Positions 3,922 through 35,584 of a stretch of DNA of 36,989 nt are shown here, piece by piece. The stretch covers positions 1-36,989 of IMG/VR virus record IMGVR_UViG_3300042010_000258. The stretch is one strand, 5' to 3'. Made by a program: the position numbers and the translations under genes. The notes beneath the pieces were generated by a model. That model made no database searches. It was not told the origin of the DNA and saw nothing but the letters and a program-made list of their open reading frames with translations. Position 1 is the stretch's first letter. Every line of letters begins with the position of its first letter. This DNA is from a virus.

Positions 3922-4466
3922 AACACCGCCCTCGCCCGCTCCCACAGTTGCAACCGATCCGAGAGGCCATTGAGGCCGCCATTGATCTTTCGGGTGATCG
4001 CTTCGAAGTCATCCCGATCCGCCAGGGCGTTCAGCTCGCGCATCCACCAGAACCAAGCCGCCGATTCGGCGGCCCCTTGCGGTTGCTCGAGCAATTCCGG
4101 CGTGCGCAGCAATCGTTCGTCGCCGAACAACGCCAGGCTACAGCGCAGGTAGTTGCTGTGACCGGTGATCTGGATCAGACCGCGTCCGCGATAGCGCTGA
4201 CCATCGCCATCTGCCGCCGGGGTGTTGCCCAGTTTTGCGGCCAAGTTACCGGTGTCGTACTTGCTCAGGTATTGCTCGCCGCCCAGTTCGCGAACGTATT
4301 GCAGCTGACCGGACTCATGGCCCACTTGGGCGATGAACGCCGCCTGCCGTTTCGGTGTGTTGATCTGCCGGTTCGTCATCGCGACATTGAGTGCGGATAC
4401 AAAAACGCCCGCTTGGCGGCGGGCGTTGGGCATGATGTGTTGCAGCTGTTGCTCGGTTAAGGGCAT
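3903..4466 (-). CDS. GH19 chitinase-type endolysin
   Basis: Cuts the peptidoglycan glycan backbone at lysis. The 187-residue protein has the GH19 core: the catalytic Glu in GHESGQLQY and the conserved YRGRGLIQITGHSNY segment that shapes the substrate groove. The start at 4466 (MPLTEQQL) is chosen because TGGAG lies five bases upstream; a longer frame to 4481 has no such signal. There is no signal peptide, so it needs a holin to cross the membrane. The holin is encoded far away at 25404. A short hairpin with a T-run (4482-4502) lies just upstream of the ribosome binding site. Confidence 0.92.
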   Translation of the reverse strand: MPLTEQQLQHIMPNARRQAGVFVSALNVAMTNRQINTPKRQAAFIAQVGHESGQLQYVRELGGEQYLSKYDTGNLAAKLGNTPAADGDGQRYRGRGLIQITGHSNYLRCSLALFGDERLLRTPELLEQPQGAAESAAWFWWMRELNALADRDDFEAITRKINGGLNGLSDRLQLWERARAVLCVSST

Positions 4467-4481
4467 AAAAACTCCAGACAT

Positions 4482-4502
4482 AAAAAAGCCGCACGGGGCG
4501 GC
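4482..4502 (-). terminator. Intrinsic terminator-like hairpin before the endolysin
   Basis: On the minus strand: GCCGC, loop CCCGT, GCGGC, then TTTTTT. It lies between the gpD stop (4521) and the endolysin start (4466). It belongs to a family of similar hairpins placed just upstream of late genes. Confidence 0.65.
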
Positions 4503-4520
4503 GATGGGGGATGTGTTGGA

Positions 4521-5567
4521 CTACGCGAGGCTGACCACCTTGACCGGTTTGTCGGCTTTCTTTTTCTTGCCCTTGGCCTTGGCTTTGCCCTGCTTGCCGC
4601 CGTTGCATTCGACCGTGGTCGACCAGCCGGCCTGGGTGTAAACCTGCTCGACCGAATCGGCCAGGTACTCGCCATCGAGCCCGACCTTGAACCCGTGGGC
4701 ATTGATTGAGCGCTCGGCAAAAATGTCGGTGCGCCCTTCCATCTCGAAACGCACCCCGGCCGTGGAACGGTTGAACGCCGCCAGGCGTGCCTTGGCCGCT
4801 GCCTCGGCGGCAGTTTTGTTCGGGTGAATGTGTCGATCCGTATGCACCGCCGGCAGGCCGTCCGGCACGTCGTCATTGTCCAGGGACACTACGGCGAGCT
4901 GGCCGGTCTTCTTGTCCTGATGCGTGGCCGCCACGGCCTTGTGCGCGTTGCGATCGCCCAGGCGGAATTGCCAACGGCTGACGTCGCTGCGCGTGAGGGT
5001 GATCGCGCCAAAGGCCTTGCCGCTTGCGCTCTCCCCGCCCTGGCGCGGCATCACCAGCAACTTGCCGTCGGCGACCTTGGTCGTGCAGTCGTATTGCTTG
5101 GCCAGGCGCGTGATGAAATTAAAATCGGACTCGCCGATTTGATCGGCACGTTCGACCTTGGTGGCCACCGGGCACACCGCTTGCCAGCCGTTGCGCGCGG
5201 CGATATCGGCGACGATCTTCGACAGCGGTACGTTTTCCCAACTGCCGCTGCGAATGGTCTTGCCGCTGCCGCGCATGTCGCTGGCCTTGCCCTGAATGAC
5301 GATGGTATCGGGCGGACCTGACACGGTGATTTCATCCACTACGTAACGCCCCAGGCGCGCCAGGGATGTCTCGACGTAGCCCAGGTAGACCTCGATCCCC
5401 GCGCCACGGCTCGGTAGCGTCACCAGGCCGTCGCGATCGTCTATGCGCAACTCGAATTCGTCCGACTCCATGCCGGTCTTGTCGGTGGTGCGCAGTTGAA
5501 TCAGCCGATCATTGATCAGGCTGGTGATGTCGGCCCCGTCGGCGACAATGCGAAACATCGGAGTCAT
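4521..5567 (-). CDS. D: P2 gpD-like tail hub / late control protein
   Basis: This 348-residue protein belongs to the gpD family of contractile tails, equivalent to the gp27-type hub that holds the spike at the baseplate centre. The N-terminal half carries the usual beta-rich hub pattern (PMFRIVADGADIT, LRIDDRDGLVTLP, GYVETSLARLGRYVVDEI). The middle contains ESDFNFITRLAKQYDC, typical of the family. The C-terminus ends in a lysine-rich tail (KGKKKKADKPVKV). The start at 5567 fits homologues; the frame could extend to 5594 but that would run into the terminator hairpin. It is the last gene of the P2-like tail block, after gpX. Confidence 0.9.
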   Translation of the reverse strand: MTPMFRIVADGADITSLINDRLIQLRTTDKTGMESDEFELRIDDRDGLVTLPSRGAGIEVYLGYVETSLARLGRYVVDEITVSGPPDTIVIQGKASDMRGSGKTIRSGSWENVPLSKIVADIAARNGWQAVCPVATKVERADQIGESDFNFITRLAKQYDCTTKVADGKLLVMPRQGGESASGKAFGAITLTRSDVSRWQFRLGDRNAHKAVAATHQDKKTGQLAVVSLDNDDVPDGLPAVHTDRHIHPNKTAAEAAAKARLAAFNRSTAGVRFEMEGRTDIFAERSINAHGFKVGLDGEYLADSVEQVYTQAGWSTTVECNGGKQGKAKAKGKKKKADKPVKVVSLA

Positions 5568-5871: not shown

Positions 5872-6691
5872 AGCGCACAAACTCCAGAGTGAACCCTTGT
5901 TTACGCGGAATCCCGCCCTGCATCAGCGCGCTTTGCTCTTCTTCAAGGCTCTTCAGGCACCAGGTGCCCAACACGTCGCCATAACCGGTGGTCAGGGTCA
6001 GCGGCTGGAGCTGGGCGCCGAGCGTGCGCAGCGTGTCGAGCTGTTTCAAGCCGCCCTTGAGGCCCGGGATAATCGCGCCCTTGAGGGTGATTTTCTCGTC
6101 GCCCATGCCCACCGCTTGCTGCGCCGGGCGCCGCGAAAGGCGCTCTTGCGAGGCCCAGCGGAATTCAGTCGAGCGGCGCAGCTCATCAAAGGCCGCCGTG
6201 TCGAGGTTGAAGAAATACGGCGCCGCCTTGGGGTCTTGCGGCTGGATGATCAACAGGTGCGGAAACGGCTGCACCGCCTCCGGCGCCGGGGTCTGATCCG
6301 TGGCAAAGGCCCCCGTGGGCACGATGTTGGCCAGGGCCGGGCTGGCCTTGCCGGCGATTTTGTTGATCGCCGTCGCCGCTTTCCCGGCCTGCTCCTTGAG
6401 CGTGCCCAAGCGCTCATCCATTCCCGACAGCGCACGACTGGCCTTGTTGTAGGTGGCCACCACCGCGCCGACCTTGGCTTGCGCGGCATTTACTCCGCGC
6501 ATCACCCGCTGGAGCTTGGCGCCCATGGCCGGCCCCACAAAGGGCAAATCCTCCAGCTCGGACGCGGCGCCGGTGATTTCACCGATCGCGCCATTCATGG
6601 GCCCCAGCATGCCGTCTAGGCTGCGCCGTCCGGTTTCCCCCGCCGAGGCCAGGTATTTCAGCCCCGACTGTAACTGCTCCAATGCCGGCAT
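5846..6691 (-). CDS. U: P2 gpU-like tail protein with an N-terminal extension
   Basis: The C-terminal half (about 130-281) matches gpU of P2-type contractile tails: PFPHLLIIQPQDPK, TEFRWASQERLSRRPAQQ and GYGDVLGTWCLKSLEEEQS. P2 gpU is about 160 residues; this protein is 281. The extra N-terminal 125 residues are Ala/Gly-rich, probably helical, and resemble tape-measure-like sequence. AGGAGGGCTT stands directly before the ATG at 6691. It lies between tape measure and gpX as in P2. The extension may be a long-standing fusion in Pseudomonas phages rather than a new event. Confidence 0.85.
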   Translation of the reverse strand: MPALEQLQSGLKYLASAGETGRRSLDGMLGPMNGAIGEITGAASELEDLPFVGPAMGAKLQRVMRGVNAAQAKVGAVVATYNKASRALSGMDERLGTLKEQAGKAATAINKIAGKASPALANIVPTGAFATDQTPAPEAVQPFPHLLIIQPQDPKAAPYFFNLDTAAFDELRRSTEFRWASQERLSRRPAQQAVGMGDEKITLKGAIIPGLKGGLKQLDTLRTLGAQLQPLTLTTGYGDVLGTWCLKSLEEEQSALMQGGIPRKQGFTLEFVRYGDDMQNV

Positions 6692-26543: not shown

Positions 26544-26568
26544 AACCGAAAAGGGGTCATTTTCGGTT
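26544..26568. repeat. 9-bp inverted repeat at the end of the Q-like gene
   Basis: AACCGAAAA (26544-26552) and TTTTCGGTT (26560-26568) pair perfectly around a 7-base loop. The hairpin covers the stop codon of the Q-like gene. It has no clean T-run and may be a weak terminator or a structured late leader. Confidence 0.5.
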
Positions 26569-27049
26569 ATCCGACTCGACGCAACTTTGACGCAACTTTG
26601 AGGAGACTTTGAGGCAAAACGCCCCGACCAGCGGTAAGCCACTTCTTCGCATCGGCCCGGTCAGCCAGCACTTGCAGCAACCGCTCATGCAAGCGATGCA
26701 CCTGGTCGTAGTAGGTCTGCTTCGCTTTCGACTCCATCCCCAACAGATGCAGCTGCATCAGCCAGGTCGGCGCCGGATCATCGCCGTAACGCAAGCCAGC
26801 CAATCGCATCAATCGATCACCCTGCTCGTCCTGTCGACCGATCTCCGAAAGCGCGGCCCCGATCTCCTGCGCCACAGCATCAGGCCCGGCCCCAGCGCCG
26901 AGAATAATCCGCGACCCGGGCATGCCCCGCGGTGCTGACCCACCCCATTCCATGATTGTCGCCATCGGGCTGCCCATGCCACCAGCTTCACCGTTCAACC
27001 GGCATTGTTCCCCCCAGTGAGTAAGCAGCACTTCCATCTCATCAATCAT
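26567..27049 (-). CDS. Probable late-gene antiterminator (Q-like)
   Basis: The 160-residue protein lies between replication and late genes, the place of lambda Q. Residues about 85-140 (GLRYGDDPAPTWLMQLHLLGMESKAKQTYYDQVHRLHERLLQVLADR) resemble the helix-turn-helix end of phage antitermination or ArpU-like regulators, where a conserved tyrosine/valine helix contacts DNA. GGGAG lies eight bases before the ATG at 27049. It would act at a late promoter directly downstream and let RNA polymerase pass the repeated terminators of the late operon. A general transcription regulator of another type cannot be excluded. Confidence 0.55.
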   Translation of the reverse strand: MIDEMEVLLTHWGEQCRLNGEAGGMGSPMATIMEWGGSAPRGMPGSRIILGAGAGPDAVAQEIGAALSEIGRQDEQGDRLMRLAGLRYGDDPAPTWLMQLHLLGMESKAKQTYYDQVHRLHERLLQVLADRADAKKWLTAGRGVLPQSLLKVASKLRRVG

Positions 27050-30228: not shown

Positions 30229-30431
30229 CGCCGAGCCTCCCGCAACCCCTGACAGTCAACGCAGGTTTGGCAACCCGCAATCGTCTGCTGCCGGCGTAAC
30301 GGGATAGCTTCGTCGCAATCCACGCAGAACTCCGCGCTGACGCGATTCGATGGCGCACGACGGCTGCGCTGAAGCGCAACGTCGAGCAAGTACTGCGCCT
30401 GATCATTGGCGCGATCGATTTCGTCAGCCAT
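30225..30431 (-). CDS. Small DksA/TraR-type zinc-finger protein
   Basis: A 68-residue protein with the four-cysteine finger CVDCDEAIPLRRQQT...CVDC near the C-terminus and an N-terminal helix (MADEIDRANDQAQYLLDVAL), the TraR/DksA pattern. The start at 30431 fits homologues; the longer frame to 30461 is inside the CII-like gene. Such proteins bind the secondary channel of RNA polymerase. It overlaps the CII-like gene by eight bases and the primase by four, so it is part of the early operon. Confidence 0.88.
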   Translation of the reverse strand: MADEIDRANDQAQYLLDVALQRSRRAPSNRVSAEFCVDCDEAIPLRRQQTIAGCQTCVDCQGLREARR

Positions 30432-30912
30432 GGACACGTTCCTCCATCGCCTGACGGGCACCGGCCATGATGCCGAGGACGTCGCGAATCACGTCCATGC
30501 CCTTCTTTTCCAGGTCCAGGACTTCGCTGAGTTCCCACACATTGTCGGCAGCACCATCGTGCATCGCGGCCACAAACTGCCCCGTCTCGCCGAGCAATTT
30601 ACCGACAGCGATCAGGGCTTCACGAGTGGCCGGTACCGGCACCGGGCGGTACCACACGGCACCCGCCGGGCGCATCAAAGCATCGAGCAACCGCGAATCA
30701 CCCGTCAGCCGGATCAACTCTTCCAGCTCATCGGGGTTCAACCAGCGTCGCTCTTCATCAAGCTTGAGTTTTTTCTGCAGGGTGTCGTTGTCCAACACCA
30801 TGTCAAAGGCAAGGGCGGTGATTCCGCCCTTGTAGTCACGACCAGCGCGATAAATCGCCTGGCGCAAAGGAAGGACCGGACCGGCGTCCGGCAAAAGGTC
30901 TGTTCGACTCAT
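30424..30912 (-). CDS. CII-like phage regulator (CP76/YmfL family)
   Basis: A DNA-binding regulator of the early/lysogeny decision. The 162-residue protein has the CP76-type N-terminal helix-turn-helix (LPLRQAIYRAGRDYKGGITALAFDMVLDNDTLQKKL, then WLNPDELEELIRLTGDSRLLDALM) followed by a long helical part. It is the first gene after cro in the minus-strand early operon, where lambda has cII. Its transcript carries the three-hairpin leader at 31024-31215. Confidence 0.85.
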   Translation of the reverse strand: MSRTDLLPDAGPVLPLRQAIYRAGRDYKGGITALAFDMVLDNDTLQKKLKLDEERRWLNPDELEELIRLTGDSRLLDALMRPAGAVWYRPVPVPATREALIAVGKLLGETGQFVAAMHDGAADNVWELSEVLDLEKKGMDVIRDVLGIMAGARQAMEERVHG

Positions 30913-31023
30913 AACCGTAAATCCCCTGTTTACGGTGTAGCCATAGGTGAAGGTAGTCCCTATCCTACGACCACGACCGATGTGCTGTGTTAATCGTGCT
31001 GTGCCGCACGGTTCATCGTTCCA

Positions 31024-31215
31024 GTCAGTCCGGGGAATTCTTGTGGTGAGAGGCCCCGTTCCGACGCTCCATGTAGCGGGTTGCGTATTCCATGTAACTC
31101 GTTGCAGCCGACCTGGTGTTTCTTTGGTGAGAGGTTCCAGGTCGGTTTGTGGCGGTATGTTATGTGCTGCGTATCGTCACGCTGGGCTGGGGGATCTTTG
31201 GTGAGAGGCCCCGGC
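31024..31215 (-). ncRNA. Three tandem RNA hairpins with a common loop, between cro and the CII-like gene
   Basis: In the 313-base gap 30913-31225, which contains no gene, three hairpins follow each other. Plus-strand loop motif TGGTGAGAGG: 31044-31053, CTTTGGTGAGAGG: 31122-31134 and 31196-31208 (sense strand CCTCTCACCAAAG). Stems differ: CGGGG/CCCCG (31031/31054), CCGACCTGG/CCAGGTCGG (31108/31137), GCTGGGG/CCCCGGC (31186/31209). The stems change but pairing is kept, so RNA structure is likely under selection. They lie in the early transcript directly after cro. Confidence 0.7.
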
Positions 31216-31225
31216 TCGGCACTCT

Positions 31226-31423
31226 TTAAGCTGCTGACTTCAATCCAGCATCTACTTTCACCTCTGTGTATAAGCGCTCAATGGCCTTACCAGTCACATA
31301 CCGAACATCAGCGCCTTTGGCAGCACGAAAAATTGTCGGCTGTGTTGTACCTACGCGATCTGCAATAACCCGTTGGGATAAACCCGACTGCAGTAACTCC
31401 GCGAGCATTTCTTGAATAGACAT
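31226..31423 (-). CDS. cro: Cro-like repressor
   Basis: A 65-residue helix-turn-helix protein from the ATG at 31423; residues about 12-37 (SGLSQRVIADRVGTTQPTIFRAAKG) form the DNA-binding motif. A longer frame upstream crosses the operators and is not expected to be translated. It is the first gene of the minus-strand early operon and diverges from the CI-type gene. Three operator-like repeats lie between them. It should switch off the CI promoter during lytic growth. Confidence 0.85.
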   Translation of the reverse strand: MSIQEMLAELLQSGLSQRVIADRVGTTQPTIFRAAKGADVRYVTGKAIERLYTEVKVDAGLKSAA

Positions 31424-31424
31424 A

Positions 31425-31486
31425 TTGATCACCAATGCGATCTCGAATTGATCGTCACAATACACAAACGAATTGATCGATTCAAT
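31425..31486. promoter_or_regulatory. Three operator-like sites between cro and CI
   Basis: ATTG-N5-CAAT (31425-31437), ATTG-N7-CAAT (31447-31461) and ATTG-N7-CAAT (31472-31486) are inverted half-sites. All start ATTGATC, and centres are 23 and 25 bases apart. CGAATTGATCG occurs twice (31444, 31469). Two sites cover the -10 and -35 of the cro promoter. Confidence 0.65.
31457..31485 (-). promoter_or_regulatory. Early promoter for cro and the replication operon (pR-like)
   Basis: Minus strand TTGAAT (31480-31485), 17-base spacer, TATTGT (31457-31462). It overlaps two operator-like sites and starts transcription about 25 bases before the cro ATG. Confidence 0.6.
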
Positions 31487-31523
31487 ACAATCGTCGATAC
31501 GTTTTTGAATCGGGGCAGAAAAA

Positions 31524-32201
31524 TTGATCGGCGATCGCATTGCTCAACGCATGCAAGAACTGGATTTATCTGAAGGTGAGCTAGGTCGCCGCTCTGGCGT
31601 ACCTCAACCAACTATTCATCGAATCGTGACGAATTCAGTTGCCAGCCCACGTCACGAAAACATCGAAAAAATTGCCAAAGCTTTGAAGGTCAGTAGCAAC
31701 TGGCTGTGGAACGGGGGGATTCACAAAGACCGAAGTATTGAGGTCAACCCTTCGTCGACGCCTGAAACCAATGTCGAACCTGGACCAGCAATTAAGGGAT
31801 ATGTACCTTTGATTTCTTGGGTGCAGGCAGGCGCCTGGTGCGAGATCGAAGACGTCCGAACTCTCGATGATGCAGAGATTTGGCTCCCGTGCGCGGCCTC
31901 CCACAGCACACAGAGTTATGCTCTCAGGGTGCGCGGGTTATCTATGTTCAACCAACATGAACGTCGCTCGTTTCGAGACGGTGACATCATTTTCGTTGAC
32001 CCTTTGAAAGACGCTGAAAATGGTTCGTTGGTGATCGCCAAACTGGTCGACAGCCAAGAAGCAACATTCAAACAATTGGTTATGGAAGGCAAACGCCGAT
32101 TCCTCAAGCCACTAAATCCTGCTTGGCCAGAGCCTATTATTGAGCTGGGAGACGATGCCATGATTTGTGGGGTTGTCTTTTCCAAACTCGAAATTTTCTG
32201 A
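31524..32201 (+). CDS. cI: CI-type prophage repressor with LexA-like self-cleavage domain
   Basis: Holds the prophage silent. The 225-residue protein has an N-terminal helix-turn-helix (SEGELGRRSGVPQPTIHRIV, 16-35) and a C-terminal S24 domain with the cleavage site Ala102-Gly103 in VQAGAW, catalytic Ser140 in VRGLSM and Lys183 in TFKQL. DNA damage should thus induce the phage through RecA. The start is a TTG at 31524 (MIGDRIAQRM), supported by GGGG eight bases upstream and by homologues beginning with IGDRI; the next ATG is at 31551. A clear terminator follows at 32221. Confidence 0.95.
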   Translation: MIGDRIAQRMQELDLSEGELGRRSGVPQPTIHRIVTNSVASPRHENIEKIAKALKVSSNWLWNGGIHKDRSIEVNPSSTPETNVEPGPAIKGYVPLISWVQAGAWCEIEDVRTLDDAEIWLPCAASHSTQSYALRVRGLSMFNQHERRSFRDGDIIFVDPLKDAENGSLVIAKLVDSQEATFKQLVMEGKRRFLKPLNPAWPEPIIELGDDAMICGVVFSKLEIF

Positions 32202-32220
32202 CGACACCAGCTTCAAACGG

Positions 32221-32242
32221 AGCCCGTATTTGCGGGCTTTTT
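32221..32242 (+). terminator. Terminator of the CI gene
   Basis: AGCCCG, loop TATTTG, CGGGCT, then TTTT. It lies 19 bases after the repressor stop and separates it from the forward early promoter. Confidence 0.9.
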
Positions 32243-32259
32243 CATGCCTGATCGCAAAA

Positions 32260-32279
32260 TCAATACATTTATGTATTGA
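32260..32279. promoter_or_regulatory. 20-bp palindromic operator at the forward early promoter
   Basis: TCAATACAT (32260-32268) and ATGTATTGA (32271-32279) form a perfect palindrome around TT. The right arm covers the -35 of the promoter. Part of it (TCAATACA) also occurs at 31482-31489 in the cro/CI operator region. Confidence 0.7.
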
Positions 32280-32304
32280 CCATATCAATTCACGTTTGTA
32301 TCGT
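32276..32304 (+). promoter_or_regulatory. Forward early promoter (pL-like)
   Basis: TTGACC (32276-32281), 17-base spacer, TATCGT (32299-32304). The predicted start is near 32311, exactly at the left arm of the next hairpin. Confidence 0.7.
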
Positions 32305-32310
32305 TTGCAT

Positions 32311-32335
32311 CGTACACCTTTCACCAATGAGTACG
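32311..32335 (+). ncRNA. Hairpin at the 5' end of the forward early transcript, same loop family
   Basis: CGTAC (32311-32315) pairs with GTACG (32331-32335); the loop holds CCTTTCACCAATGA, close to the sense consensus CCTCTCACCAAAGA of the hairpins after cro. It would be the first structure in the transcript. Confidence 0.55.
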
Positions 32336-32339
32336 AGCC

Positions 32340-32540
32340 ATGCAAACCACACAGCACAGCAACACCCGCTGCCCGGTCTACCTGCATCCCTCTGCATGCA
32401 GTAGCCGGGCAGCCGTTGAAGCCATCCAGCGCCAAACTGGCCTGCAGGTAATTACCACCCTCAAAGGCCGCACTGCGGCCGTCGAGCCCACTAGCGCCGC
32501 CACTGACAGCTCGCGGCCTGTCGGGGGCGACGCAGCATGA
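32340..32540 (+). CDS. Small early protein of unknown function (66 aa)
   Basis: A 66-residue protein starting five bases after the leader hairpin. The N-terminal half CPVYLHPSACSSRAAVEAIQRQTGLQVITTLKGRTAAVE has a compact alpha/beta pattern that I associate with small proteins common in early regions of Pseudomonas phages, without known function. Two Cys are present. Only a weak Shine-Dalgarno sequence is seen. Its stop overlaps the next start as ATGA. Confidence 0.65.
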   Translation: MQTTQHSNTRCPVYLHPSACSSRAAVEAIQRQTGLQVITTLKGRTAAVEPTSAATDSSRPVGGDAA

Positions 32541-32908
32541 ACAGCTATCTCATCCCCCTCGAAAAGCAAGAGCTACTGCATCACATGCTGCAGGTCGGCG
32601 GCGCTGCTGTGTGCCCTCTCCAGCGGCCAGAGCAAACTATCCACGCGAAATTTGAAGTCGAGCTCACCGACACTACCGCAACCATCAACGTTGACCTGGG
32701 TGGGCACACCGGTGAACTGACCCTCAAACGTACCGACCGGGCCAACCACCTGCACCTGCGGGAATTCATTCAGGACATTGCGAACGGCCGAATCGAGTCC
32801 GCTCAATCCGCGCCACCAGGTCAAATCGGCCGCTTGGCGCAAATCGATCAAGCGCTGGCCGACTCCGAAGCCCTGCTTGACCGCGTCCGCAAACTGATCG
32901 CCGCCTGA
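32537..32908 (+). CDS. Early protein of unknown function (123 aa)
   Basis: A 123-residue protein. Residues 40-75 are strand-rich (KFEVELTDTTATINVDLGGHTGELTLKRTD), followed by a helical C-terminus (GQIGRLAQIDQALADSEALLDRVRKLIA). No motif is recognised. It is translationally coupled to the gene before it and lies ten bases before the KilA-C-like gene. Its position in the forward early operon suggests a recombination, anti-host or regulatory accessory role, which is inference. Confidence 0.7.
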   Translation: MNSYLIPLEKQELLHHMLQVGGAAVCPLQRPEQTIHAKFEVELTDTTATINVDLGGHTGELTLKRTDRANHLHLREFIQDIANGRIESAQSAPPGQIGRLAQIDQALADSEALLDRVRKLIAA

Positions 32909-32918
32909 GGACAGCGCC

Positions 32919-33200
32919 ATGAACCGCACCCTGGACGAAACGGCCGCCGTGCTCGGCCTCAAACCCCGGAAGTTTCGCGAGCAATTGCGTGCACTCCGCT
33001 TGCTGACTCAAAGCGGCGACCTCGCAAGCCAGCACCGCGATCGTGGCTACCTGTTCTCCGACCCACGCAGCCGCTGGAACGACAACATCCAAGCCTACAG
33101 CCACTACGCCGTAGTGATGGTCACCGAGCGCGGCATCGACTGGCTCGCGAAACAGCTGGGCATCGGCATCAAGGCACACAACAAGGACGCTGCAGCATGA
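32919..33200 (+). CDS. KilA-C-like antirepressor-type domain protein
   Basis: A 93-residue protein made of a KilA-C-like domain only. The pattern TLDETAAVLGLKPRKFREQLRALRLL (a helix-turn-helix), then YAVVMVTERGIDWLAKQLGI, is the usual end of phage antirepressors. In longer relatives this domain sits behind a Bro-N, Rha or Ant module; here it stands alone. It could bind DNA or a repressor during early growth. It is coupled to the next gene by a four-base overlap. Confidence 0.8.
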   Translation: MNRTLDETAAVLGLKPRKFREQLRALRLLTQSGDLASQHRDRGYLFSDPRSRWNDNIQAYSHYAVVMVTERGIDWLAKQLGIGIKAHNKDAAA

Positions 33201-33580
33201 CTACCAACTACTTCAACGCATACACCCAAGCCCTAGGCGCCCTTCGGCTGATCCCGATCTACCTGGACAGCCTGGGCGTGGTCGGCCGGGCGACGTTGAT
33301 CGGCGCCGCGAGCGAAGCTATCGACCTGCTGGCAAGCGTCCCCTGCCGCACTGTGGAACTGGCCGAAGTATTCCGCTGCGTCAACAACGTGATCGAAGAC
33401 GGCCAGGTGGCCTACGTCACTCCAACCAACTCCCCTGAATACCCATTCGGTGCCGTGGTCGCAGACGCAAACGGCCAGATCTGCGCAGCAGCCATGGGCA
33501 AAAGCAAAGAAGGCCTCGCCGAACTGATACGCCTCAAGTTGCACACTCCCGCGGAGGGGTTCGGGGAGGTTGCCGCATGA
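33197..33580 (+). CDS. Early protein of unknown function (127 aa)
   Basis: A 127-residue protein with no recognised domain. The N-terminal helix region (NAYTQALGALRLIPIYLDSLGVV) and a C-terminal strand/helix pair (FGAVVADANGQICAAAMGKSKEGLAELIRLKL) suggest a small alpha/beta fold. Start and stop each overlap their neighbours by four bases, placing it firmly in the operon between the KilA-C-like and PrtN-family genes. Confidence 0.7.
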   Translation: MTTNYFNAYTQALGALRLIPIYLDSLGVVGRATLIGAASEAIDLLASVPCRTVELAEVFRCVNNVIEDGQVAYVTPTNSPEYPFGAVVADANGQICAAAMGKSKEGLAELIRLKLHTPAEGFGEVAA

Positions 33581-33819
33581 GCAACACCCTCGACCAGTTG
33601 CGCAAACAGTTCGCCACACCTTGCCCGTCACTGACAGCAGTACGTGAACATTACTTCACCCACATCCGCACCGATCGCTACCTGCTGAGCGAGATCAAGG
33701 CAGGCCGCATCGACTTGATCGTGACACGCCTGCACAACTCGGCGCGGGCAAAACCGGTGGTGTACCTGCACAACCTGGCTGCCTACCTCGACGCCCAAGC
33801 GCCGAAGCAAGCGGCCTGA
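33577..33819 (+). CDS. Pyocin activator PrtN family protein
   Basis: An 80-residue protein of the PrtN (PyocinActivator) family: SLTAVREHYFTHIRTDRYLLSEIKAGRIDLIVTRLHNSARAKPVVYLHNLAAYLDAQ shows in order the conserved YF...YLL..I..G.I, the R..S..A and the C-terminal LA.YLDA segments. PrtN activates pyocin genes in P. aeruginosa after RecA-dependent loss of its repressor. Here it is part of a phage early operon and could either activate phage genes or act on host tailocin promoters. It is followed by a hairpin without T-run. Confidence 0.85.
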   Translation: MSNTLDQLRKQFATPCPSLTAVREHYFTHIRTDRYLLSEIKAGRIDLIVTRLHNSARAKPVVYLHNLAAYLDAQAPKQAA

Positions 33820-33829
33820 TTAAACGGTG

Positions 33830-33848
33830 GCCCCTGCCGTTCAGGGGC
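33830..33848 (+). other. GC-rich hairpin behind the PrtN-family gene
   Basis: GCCCCTG (33830-33836) pairs with CAGGGGC (33842-33848) around CCGTT. No T-run follows on either strand, so it is not a normal terminator. It may stabilise or process the early transcript. Confidence 0.5.
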
Positions 33849-33878
33849 AAACAACACAAATCCAATGAGGCACAGCAC

Positions 33879-34220
33879 ATGAAAGCCACAGACACGAACG
33901 ACTTTTTCAACTCGCTGAATGCTGGTGTTTTCGCCCAGCAGATCGGCCAAGCCCTCTCGAACGTCGCCGCTGGTGTGATCGACTTTGGCAAGGCCGGCGA
34001 AGTGACGATCAAGTTGAAGATGAAACAGATCGGCCAGAGCAATCAGGTCGCAATCAGCCACACCCTTGATTTCGCCCAGCCCACTAAGCGCGGCAAGTTG
34101 CGTGAAGACTCAACCCTGGACACCCCGCTGTACCTCACCCCGCAAGGGTTGACGCTGTTCCAGAACGACCCGACTTCTCAGCTCTTCAAGAGCGAAGACA
34201 CGCCAGTAGTCCCTCGCTAA
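33879..34220 (+). CDS. Early protein of unknown function (113 aa)
   Basis: A 113-residue protein that often accompanies DUF2303/YfdQ genes in phages. The middle (GVIDFGKAGEVTIKLKMKQIGQSNQVAISHTLDFAQP) is strand-rich, and the end LYLTPQGLTLFQNDPTSQLF has a regular pattern. No function is known. Its leader GAGGCACAGCACATGA (33867-33882) is identical over 16 bases to that of the gene at 35165. The next gene, DUF2303, follows after 55 bases. Confidence 0.75.
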   Translation: MKATDTNDFFNSLNAGVFAQQIGQALSNVAAGVIDFGKAGEVTIKLKMKQIGQSNQVAISHTLDFAQPTKRGKLREDSTLDTPLYLTPQGLTLFQNDPTSQLFKSEDTPVVPR

Positions 34221-34252
34221 ACATCATCAATCATCCAGACGCAGCACCAAAT

Positions 34253-34265
34253 CCTCTCACCAAAA
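34253..34265 (+). other. Loop-motif copy CCTCTCACCAAAA before the DUF2303 gene
   Basis: This matches the sense consensus CCTCTCACCAAAG of the hairpin family, but flanking bases form no good stem. It overlaps the start of the Shine-Dalgarno sequence AAAGGAAG of the gene at 34276. It may be a degenerate copy. Confidence 0.45.
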
Positions 34266-34275
34266 GGAAGCATCA

Positions 34276-35085
34276 ATGCCACTCGCTAAAGACACTCTCG
34301 AACTGATCGTTGCCCAAGCACACGCAGCCAGCACCCTTCCGTCAACGCTCATTCCTGTAACAGCGCTGCCTGACAACGTGCAGATACATAACCTCGAAAA
34401 ATATCAGGCTCTGCGCTCCCGATTCCGCGGTGCACTGCATACCAGCAGTCTGCGCGACTTTGCTGAGTACACGATCTCGCGCACCGGCCCCGCCGCCAAA
34501 GGTTTCGTCGACCAGGACGATATGAGCTGCAAGGTCTTCTTCAACCTTGGCGACGAAACCGTACCAGGCCATGCGGATGACGTGGCAACACTGAAGCTGA
34601 AGCCGACCGCCGCCTTCAAAGCACTCCAGCAAATCGCCGGCAAGAAACTCAGCCAACGTGACCTTGCCGAGTGGATTGAAGACTGGCACCTCAGCCTGGT
34701 GGCAAGTAAGGAAGGCGGGGGCACCATGACCATCAGCGCAGCCATCGCCAGTGTTCGCAACATCACCATCGAAGCCCGCAGCTCGGCCACAAGCAGTGAA
34801 CACAACTTCGGCGCCTCCCGCAGCGCGATGGATAGCATCGAAGCTGCCAGCGCCGAGAGCCGTATCGAGGCGCTGTTCTTCGAACTGATCCCGTATGAAG
34901 GCCTGAGCACCCGCGTGTTCACCCTCAAGCTCAGCATCTTGACCGGTGACGACAAACCGACCCTCAAGCTGCGCTGGGCCGGCGAAGAGCAGCAGGTAGA
35001 AGAAATCGCCCAGGAATTCAAAACGACACTCGCCAGAGAAGTCGGCGGCTCCGCGACCCTGACCCTGGGCACCTTCACCGCGTAA
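34276..35085 (+). CDS. YfdQ family protein (DUF2303)
   Basis: A 269-residue protein of the DUF2303/YfdQ family, widespread in phage early regions and of unknown role. Typical segments are LPDNVQIHNLEKYQALRSRFRG, SLRDFAEYTISR, SCKVFFNLGDETVPGHADDVATL, SQRDLAEWIEDW and the C-terminal strand-rich YEGLSTRVFTLKLSILTGDDKPTLKLR. Length matches the family. It follows the 113-residue gene that usually accompanies it. The downstream gap holds a hairpin of the common-loop family. Confidence 0.92.
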   Translation: MPLAKDTLELIVAQAHAASTLPSTLIPVTALPDNVQIHNLEKYQALRSRFRGALHTSSLRDFAEYTISRTGPAAKGFVDQDDMSCKVFFNLGDETVPGHADDVATLKLKPTAAFKALQQIAGKKLSQRDLAEWIEDWHLSLVASKEGGGTMTISAAIASVRNITIEARSSATSSEHNFGASRSAMDSIEAASAESRIEALFFELIPYEGLSTRVFTLKLSILTGDDKPTLKLRWAGEEQQVEEIAQEFKTTLAREVGGSATLTLGTFTA

Positions 35086-35112
35086 CCATCCAATCCCCGT
35101 AGCAATATCCTG

Positions 35113-35142
35113 CCGCCGGCCTCTCACCAAGCATCCCGGCGG
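35113..35142 (+). ncRNA. RNA hairpin of the common-loop family between DUF2303 and the membrane protein gene
   Basis: CCGCCGG (35113-35119) pairs perfectly with CCGGCGG (35136-35142); the loop is CCTCTCACCAAGCATC. Loop sequence and orientation relative to transcription are as in the hairpins behind cro, but the stem is different. Confidence 0.65.
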
Positions 35143-35164
35143 CGGACCTAACGAGGCACAGCAC

Positions 35165-35584
35165 ATGACCACACCTCAAATTTGCGCACTGATCGTTCTG
35201 ATCGTACTTGTTGGCCTGACTTATTGGGCAGGCTATCGCGGCGGCTTGATCGACGGCCGCATTGAAGGTATCGACGAAGGCAAGGACATTCAGCAATCAG
35301 ATAACTCTGGGATGATCCAGGACCTGAAGCTGTCGCTTAATCAGGCACAGGCCCACTACGAGCAACTTTACTCCCACTATGAGCGGGCGTTGGCTGCGTC
35401 AAAACTAGGGGAGCCGGCTCGCCAAACCCTATTGGAAATCGCAGAAAAACTGCGCATTGCAGCCGAAACATTCAGCGCCTTCCGCACCGGCAAGAAACTC
35501 GAGCGCGACTCACTCACCCTCCGCGATAAGGCCCTGGCTATGGCAGTCCTTTTAGAACCGCAAGTGCTGGAGGATGCAGCATGA
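35165..35584 (+). CDS. Membrane-anchored coiled-coil protein of unknown function (139 aa)
   Basis: A 139-residue protein with one N-terminal membrane helix (about 5-25, ICALIVLIVLVGLTYWAGY) and a long helical rest, likely partly coiled coil (SGMIQDLKLSLNQAQAHYEQLYSHYERAL). The topology suggests a cytoplasmic C-terminal part anchored in the inner membrane. No enzymatic motif. It is the last gene before excisionase and overlaps it by four bases. A role in exclusion or replication anchoring is possible but unsupported. Confidence 0.75.
   Translation: MTTPQICALIVLIVLVGLTYWAGYRGGLIDGRIEGIDEGKDIQQSDNSGMIQDLKLSLNQAQAHYEQLYSHYERALAASKLGEPARQTLLEIAEKLRIAAETFSAFRTGKKLERDSLTLRDKALAMAVLLEPQVLEDAA

Follow-up and report, generated by a model that had tools for sequence, protein, structure and literature searches.

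A bipartite RNA element with phage-specific hairpin loops in both early transcripts of temperate Pseudomonas phages, and a possible role in nut-like antitermination

Do temperate Pseudomonas phages with the lambda layout have a counterpart to the antitermination protein N and its nut sites? No N function had been recognized in them, and for P. aeruginosa phage YA3 a published account had to guess which open reading frame (ORF) "takes the place of N" (PMC7326022). The question is raised here by IMG/VR record IMGVR_UViG_3300042010_000258, a stretch of 36,989 nucleotides (nt), analyzed whole and called the window below, which by gene content comes from a temperate Pseudomonas phage. Its minus-strand cro side carries a Cro-like gene, divergent from a CI-like repressor gene, with a CII-like activator and a primase/helicase; its plus-strand operon, called the left operon by analogy with lambda, carries a small gene of unknown function (gene1), PrtN-like and DUF2303/YfdQ genes, and an integrase gene last. 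An earlier note, made from the letters of the window, had described a family of RNA hairpins with a shared loop in both early transcripts and had likened it to lambda nut and HK022 put sites. That family is confirmed and is larger than first described. We give about an even chance to the reading that it belongs to a bipartite element acting in nut-like antitermination, with a phage-encoded reader that is most likely the product of gene1.

All six copies of the loop are present at the sites claimed for them, three on the minus strand (31041-31053, 31122-31134 and 31196-31208) and three on the plus strand (32317-32329, 34253-34265 and 35120-35132), and all have the same orientation relative to transcription. 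Within the window alone, matches to the 13-mer at up to three mismatches are not significant (12 against 9.1 expected). The core CTCACCAA has five exact matches against 0.98 expected, a count reached in none of 100 shuffles, and four of the five fall on claimed sites. Of the six copies, five form hairpins, and two have clear z-scores (-4.8 for 31108-31145, -2.8 for 35110-35145); the remaining three are weaker when folded singly (z of -2.0, -1.6 and -1.0). Site A, behind cro, comprises three minus-strand hairpins: copy 1 (31180..31219), about 20 nt 3' of the cro stop, with a GGGG..CCCC stem and the loop CCTCTCACCAAAG at 31196-31208; copy 2 (31108..31145), with the arms CCGACCTGG and CCAGGTCGG around the loop at 31122-31134; and copy 3 (31025..31065), with CGGGG paired to CCCCG around CCTCTCACCACAA at 31041-31053. 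They score 46.1, 45.8 and 38.5 bits, respectively, with the R1 model. The plus-strand sites are B (32310..32336), where TCGTAC and GTACGA enclose CCTTTCACCAATG and the 3' arm holds the ribosome-binding region of gene1; C (34252..34268), whose loop CTCTCACCAAAA, the copy at 34253, is closed by a stem of just 4 bp, TCCT/AGGA, in which AGGA is the Shine-Dalgarno sequence of yfdQ (start at 34276); and D (35110..35145; 43.4 bits), 3' of yfdQ, where CTGCCGCCGG and CCGGCGGCGG enclose CCTCTCACCAAGC. Hairpin B begins at about +1 of a left-operon promoter, TTGACC-17-TATCGT (32276..32304, plus strand), predicted from its consensus match only, and the same spacing recurs behind predicted promoters in other loci.

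The recurrence of these sites in relatives is what makes the observation in the window decisive. The element is found at matching places in about 180 related loci, drawn from INPHARED, IMG/VR and GTDB genomes, with Pseudomonas, Stutzerimonas and, in one case, Halomonas as hosts of the homologous phages and prophages. Four places are fixed: A, where one to six hairpins lie after cro and ahead of the CII-like gene; B, within the leader that precedes the first plus-strand early gene; C, over the yfdQ ribosome-binding site and lacking a long stem; and D, directly 3' of yfdQ. In a set of 110 non-redundant phages, the median distance from the cro stop to the first A loop is 20.5 nt, and the last A loop lies about 119 nt before the CII start; the A hairpin is single in 75 of the 110, and B and D are single as well. 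A thus stands behind cro and before the CII-like gene and B at the predicted start of the left operon, which is the nut- or put-like placement that the earlier note had proposed.

The stems differ in sequence from site to site and still pair, as that note had argued. In an RNAalifold analysis of 40 A and D sites, all seven consensus pairs show changes on both sides. Stems at A pair better with their own arms (20.8) than with arms swapped in from other sites (13.2) or with shuffled flanks (10.0), and at D the arms are too alike between sites for the swap to be informative. A covariance-model search, of the kind suggested together with the original observation, gave 67 matches in 53 loci. Every one is in the sense orientation, minus strand at A and plus strand at D; antisense copies, which would have counted against an RNA element, did not appear. 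Run on 249 Pseudomonas genomes, the model matched in 23, and all neighborhoods examined belonged to this early region. An Rfam search gave chance matches only, with no family near its gathering score.

The hairpin was rightly seen as part of the element, and a second part was missed. The linear sequence ACAGCAC follows the hairpin in the sense strand at 87 of 98 A loci, 81 of 95 B loci and 62 of 71 D loci; shuffled sequence gives 1-2%, and antisense about zero. It is common to the Pseudomonas phages of the family. Measured from loop start, the box lies a median of 37 nt away at A, 31 nt at B and 38 nt at D, with a narrow spread; the stem mostly ends 10-14 nt before the box at all three, and the distance is nearly fixed in 89 of 96 A sites. 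In the window the box belongs to A copy 3 (30996..31002, minus strand, with a second copy at 30982-30988), to B (32351..32357, plus strand, within the first codons of gene1) and to D (35158..35164, plus strand, immediately 5' of the next start codon at 35165). A copy 1 is followed, 35 nt from its loop start, by GCAGCAC (31164..31170, minus strand), one mismatch away, and no box was found 3' of the copy 2 hairpin; among the relatives, some upstream tandem A copies have a box of their own. The box is not merely part of a ribosome-binding site, since at A it is far from start codons and at B it lies inside gene1. Site C, having neither long stem nor box, is not a complete element. The phage at locus L029 retains ACAGCA with a different loop class, and Halomonas phage H4907 has, judged by eye, another repeated sequence, GCAAACCAATGC, at the box position. 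A further hairpin in the window (33836-33878), GCCCCTG..CAGGGGC with an ACAGCAC box, lies upstream of the gene at 33879 and is possibly a fifth, degenerate site; at the equivalent position in phages Meadow and Presto, unpaired AACTCACCC comes after a long hairpin.

The loop is shared within a phage, as first reported, and differs between phages, which had been overlooked. Most phages have the loop core CTCAC. Several Stutzerimonas phages have CTTAC instead, L095 and L100 have CTGAC, LPPA56 and L094 share CTCTAC, and L029 and H4907 share CCCACCAC. In 15 of 15 phages, picked to span the classes and labeled by hand from site tables, a single class occupies all sites; when labels were permuted within site types, the mean was 0.5 and the maximum 4 concordant phages in 2000 trials. 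The 15 summarize those tables and are not an independent sample, and the figures carry no correction for kinship among phages of one class. Whole-element copying between sites is not the cause, because the site-specific stems of B and D stay similar across loop classes. On the cro-CII-primase side, phages Meadow and LPPA56 of P. aeruginosa share 98.6% identity (from CII onwards, 2987 columns contain 26 differences), and between them both A loops, B and D are all switched. A concerted switch of this kind, even within one host species, implies, as far as sequence can tell, a phage-encoded trans-acting reader of the loop rather than a host factor or a cis-acting RNA. With up to eight sites changed together, it is a clear example of a trans factor and many sites evolving in step.

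The best candidate for the reader is gene1 (32340..32540, plus strand; 66 residues, phrog_13491), the first gene 3' of B and so in the place of N in lambda. The tract exchanged between Meadow and LPPA56 is A-cro-CI-B-gene1. Their gene1 products are 78% identical and other early proteins 92-100%, the exceptions being gene1, CI, Cro and genes absent from one phage or lying further downstream; primase/helicase, CII, PrtN, g3, g2 and kinase are at 94-100%, the primase/helicase at 100%. CI and Cro do not track class: between L095 and L100, which are of one class, CI is 29% and Cro 24% identical, and CI reaches 74% identity between L060 and L100, which belong to different classes. The gene1 product tracks class, imperfectly, with 96% identity between L095 and L100. 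No gene1 column separates the C and T classes across all nine Stutzerimonas sequences, and T42A separates six close relatives among them. The gene occurs in nine INPHARED Pseudomonas phages of this type, has a homologue in H4907, and adjoins nearly every A site checked, the exception being L193, a 3-kb stretch too short for certain reach; no homologue was found in 368 other gammaproteobacterial genomes sampled. The statement that no N-like gene is obvious holds for homology; by position and co-variation gene1 is a good candidate. It most likely reads the loop, presumably by binding the RNA. In Turba (L062) and Lodos (L063, 6001-6207) gene1 is unannotated, and in Lodos an antisense ORF is called there. 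A GC-rich hairpin, gctgcc..ggcagc, is possible over gene1 codons 10-18 or so, the conserved stretch coding for CPVYLHP, in several loci (e.g., L093 at +25 and L105 at +21).

Under the nut-like reading, nascent early transcripts would bear, immediately after cro (A), where the left operon begins (B) and past yfdQ (D), an element composed of a phage-specific hairpin loop, a 10-14 nt spacer and the ACAGCAC box. A phage-encoded protein, most likely the gene1 product, would recognize the loop and a host factor would probably recognize the box; the complex would then most likely modify RNA polymerase so that termination is read through in both early operons, as by N at nut. At B and at the stemless C, the same complex would probably also lower translation, of gene1 (an autoregulation) and of yfdQ. 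Lambda N likewise represses its own translation.

Antitermination is the first choice because placement, bipartite build and the implied phage-specific reading match the logic of N and nut. In lambda, P22, 21 and mEp021, as here, sense-oriented sites follow cro and open the left operon (its promoter in our case being a prediction), a hairpin with a phage-specific loop is combined with a linear box in concerted specificity classes, and the leading gene of the left operon, next after the leader site, encodes a small protein. Coliphage mEp021, with Gp17 and three nut sites, resembles the present phages in having more than two sites (PMC11893012). The order, however, is here hairpin then box, and the parts differ. 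With up to two mismatches allowed, sequences resembling boxA (GCTCTTTAACA / CGCTCTTACACA) are seen in 0-3 of 98 loci, about as often as in shuffled sequence, and the GCTCTT[TA]A core is absent in sense. A likeness of CTCTACACC in LPPA56 to lambda boxA, CTCTTACACA, was considered and fails at the LPPA56 B and C sites. Lambdoid boxB has a GNRA-like, purine-rich pentaloop, whereas the loops here are pyrimidine-rich, with about 7-20 nt between the arms; the absence of lambda boxA and boxB had been correctly noted at the outset. Unlike N, the gene1 product has no N-terminal arginine-rich motif and no homology to N. With no boxA, no boxB loop and no arginine-rich protein, the element is not a nut site, and we infer that it works like one.

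Several observations weigh against this. The gene1 product shows no Pfam or PDB match and no RNA-binding motif that can be recognized, its six arginines and lysines among 66 residues are unclustered with no arginine-rich motif, and its structural model, a beta-alpha-beta core, is of low confidence (pLDDT 61). Loop class differs between L003 and L103, whose gene1 is 97% identical, and LPPA56 gene1 is slightly closer to that of L095, of another class (88%), than to that of L094, of its own (84%). Counts of G-U against A-C point both ways on which strand folds: D sites favor sense pairing, and A sites show an excess of A-C mismatches, mostly from a few lineages. No conserved intrinsic terminator was found after A (sense 9 of 113, antisense control 47 of 113); a tR1-like terminator there is convincing only in pAN and one relative. 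Finally, tailocin-type loci carry gene1 with a B-like hairpin of its own before prtN, near trpE where the neighborhood was read, and no further copy of the element was found in them. These loci (L104-L106, L110 at 5970-6470, L093, L102 and L109, with gene1 directly before prtN and trpE adjoining in L105) amount to B-gene1-prtN only and leave little for long-range antitermination to act on; their loops differ, being CCTCGTCATGG or CATTCATTACCG.

The lone pair of B and gene1 in tailocin loci fits a gene1 product that targets its own leader, as autoregulation predicts, and so bears on the main rival, translational control. Phages have translational operators, among them the coat protein sites of RNA phages and the RegA sites of T4. 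An early phage protein, gene1 or another, might simply repress the gene directly downstream, namely gene1 at B, yfdQ at C, the gene after D and CII at A, with polymerase unaffected; we hold this to be somewhat unlikely as the whole explanation. It shares with known operators a hairpin or loop over ribosome-binding regions, present in the 3' arm of B and in C, and a start codon follows D after about 20 nt. It leaves unexplained A, with its fixed distance from cro (about 20 nt past the gene and about 119 nt from CII) and its one to six tandem copies, and also the linear box, whose spacing is kept at A far from start codons and at B within the coding region. Antitermination and translational control may both be true.

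That gene1 is a passenger and the reader another early factor, such as the antirepressor-like g3 protein, yfdQ or a loop-pairing phage RNA, we regard as improbable. Columns of yfdQ and CII do separate the C and T classes in Stutzerimonas, and gene1 changes little between L003 and L103. Against the protein candidates stands that neither yfdQ nor g6 turned up in Meadow, a phage with the sites, and that g3, PrtN and CII are 97-99% identical across the class switch. The repeats might instead be DNA iterons of a primase/helicase origin, the primase-helicase being encoded in the cro-side operon; the antisense loop, which reads TTTGGTGAGAGG, is reminiscent of the P4 alpha iterons, to which GGTGAGAG has a loose resemblance. 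We reject the P4-type idea, which keeps only a vanishing share of our belief, because the fixed sense orientation in both operons and the covarying stems indicate RNA. The sites also occur at translation starts, and the primase/helicase of Meadow and LPPA56 is identical though their loops differ. Action in cis, which had been raised in the earlier note, would mean an RNA that binds RNA polymerase without a phage protein, as put does through the zinc-binding domain of the beta' subunit. HK022 put RNA, of about 70 nt with two stem-loops, needs no phage protein, and like the present hairpins putL and putR are structured RNAs placed after both early promoters (PMC9378689); several hairpins here are strong. 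Nevertheless, a single A hairpin suffices in 75 of 110 phages and so at most A sites, a box follows, and the loops co-vary, with classes switching together at four to eight dispersed sites per phage within one host species. The element is therefore not put, and we consider a put-like action in cis very unlikely. What stands of the nut/put proposal is the nut-like placement, the stem covariation and the sense-only orientation.

Taken whole, the nut-like reading would describe, at slightly below even probability, a system for early RNA control or processive antitermination that is unrelated to N/nut, put and Q. Its reader would be a protein of about 65 residues from an uncharacterized family, and its site a hairpin followed by a host-type box, the reverse of the nut order. 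Phages of Pseudomonas and Halomonas would have at least five naturally evolved loop specificities between them, and tailocin clusters a pared-down form of the system. We found no earlier description of such an element in the open-access literature, subscription papers and preprints being outside that coverage. If true, it would fill the N gap for this phage family by an independently evolved solution and would predict which protein reads which RNA; natural loop-protein pairs of differing specificity would be useful for studying the evolution of RNA-protein recognition and as RNA-tethering parts.

The neighboring genes in the window are the Cro-like regulator (31226..31540, minus strand; phrog_6831), the CI-like S24 repressor (31524..32201, plus strand; phrog_4), the CII-like activator (Phage_CP76; 30424..30912, minus strand) and yfdQ/DUF2303 (34276..35085, plus strand); the primase-helicase is annotated PriCT-2 in relatives. 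The leader of the CII-like gene (30905-30985, minus strand) is strongly conserved in the window and relatives. Immediately 5' of the start codon, a hairpin CCGTAAA..TTTACGG holds the Shine-Dalgarno sequence in its loop, and upstream of it lies CTACGAC..GTCGTGG, whose loop holds the ACAGCAC box in several phages; RNA structure may control CII translation. A phrog_4300 protein, labeled "antitermination protein" in Halomonas phage H4907, is encoded at 26567-27049 (minus strand) in the window, at 256-633 in L064, and at 4280-4717 in the tailocin locus L105, there on the opposite strand. It is probably a Q-like late regulator, common to these phages and one tailocin locus.

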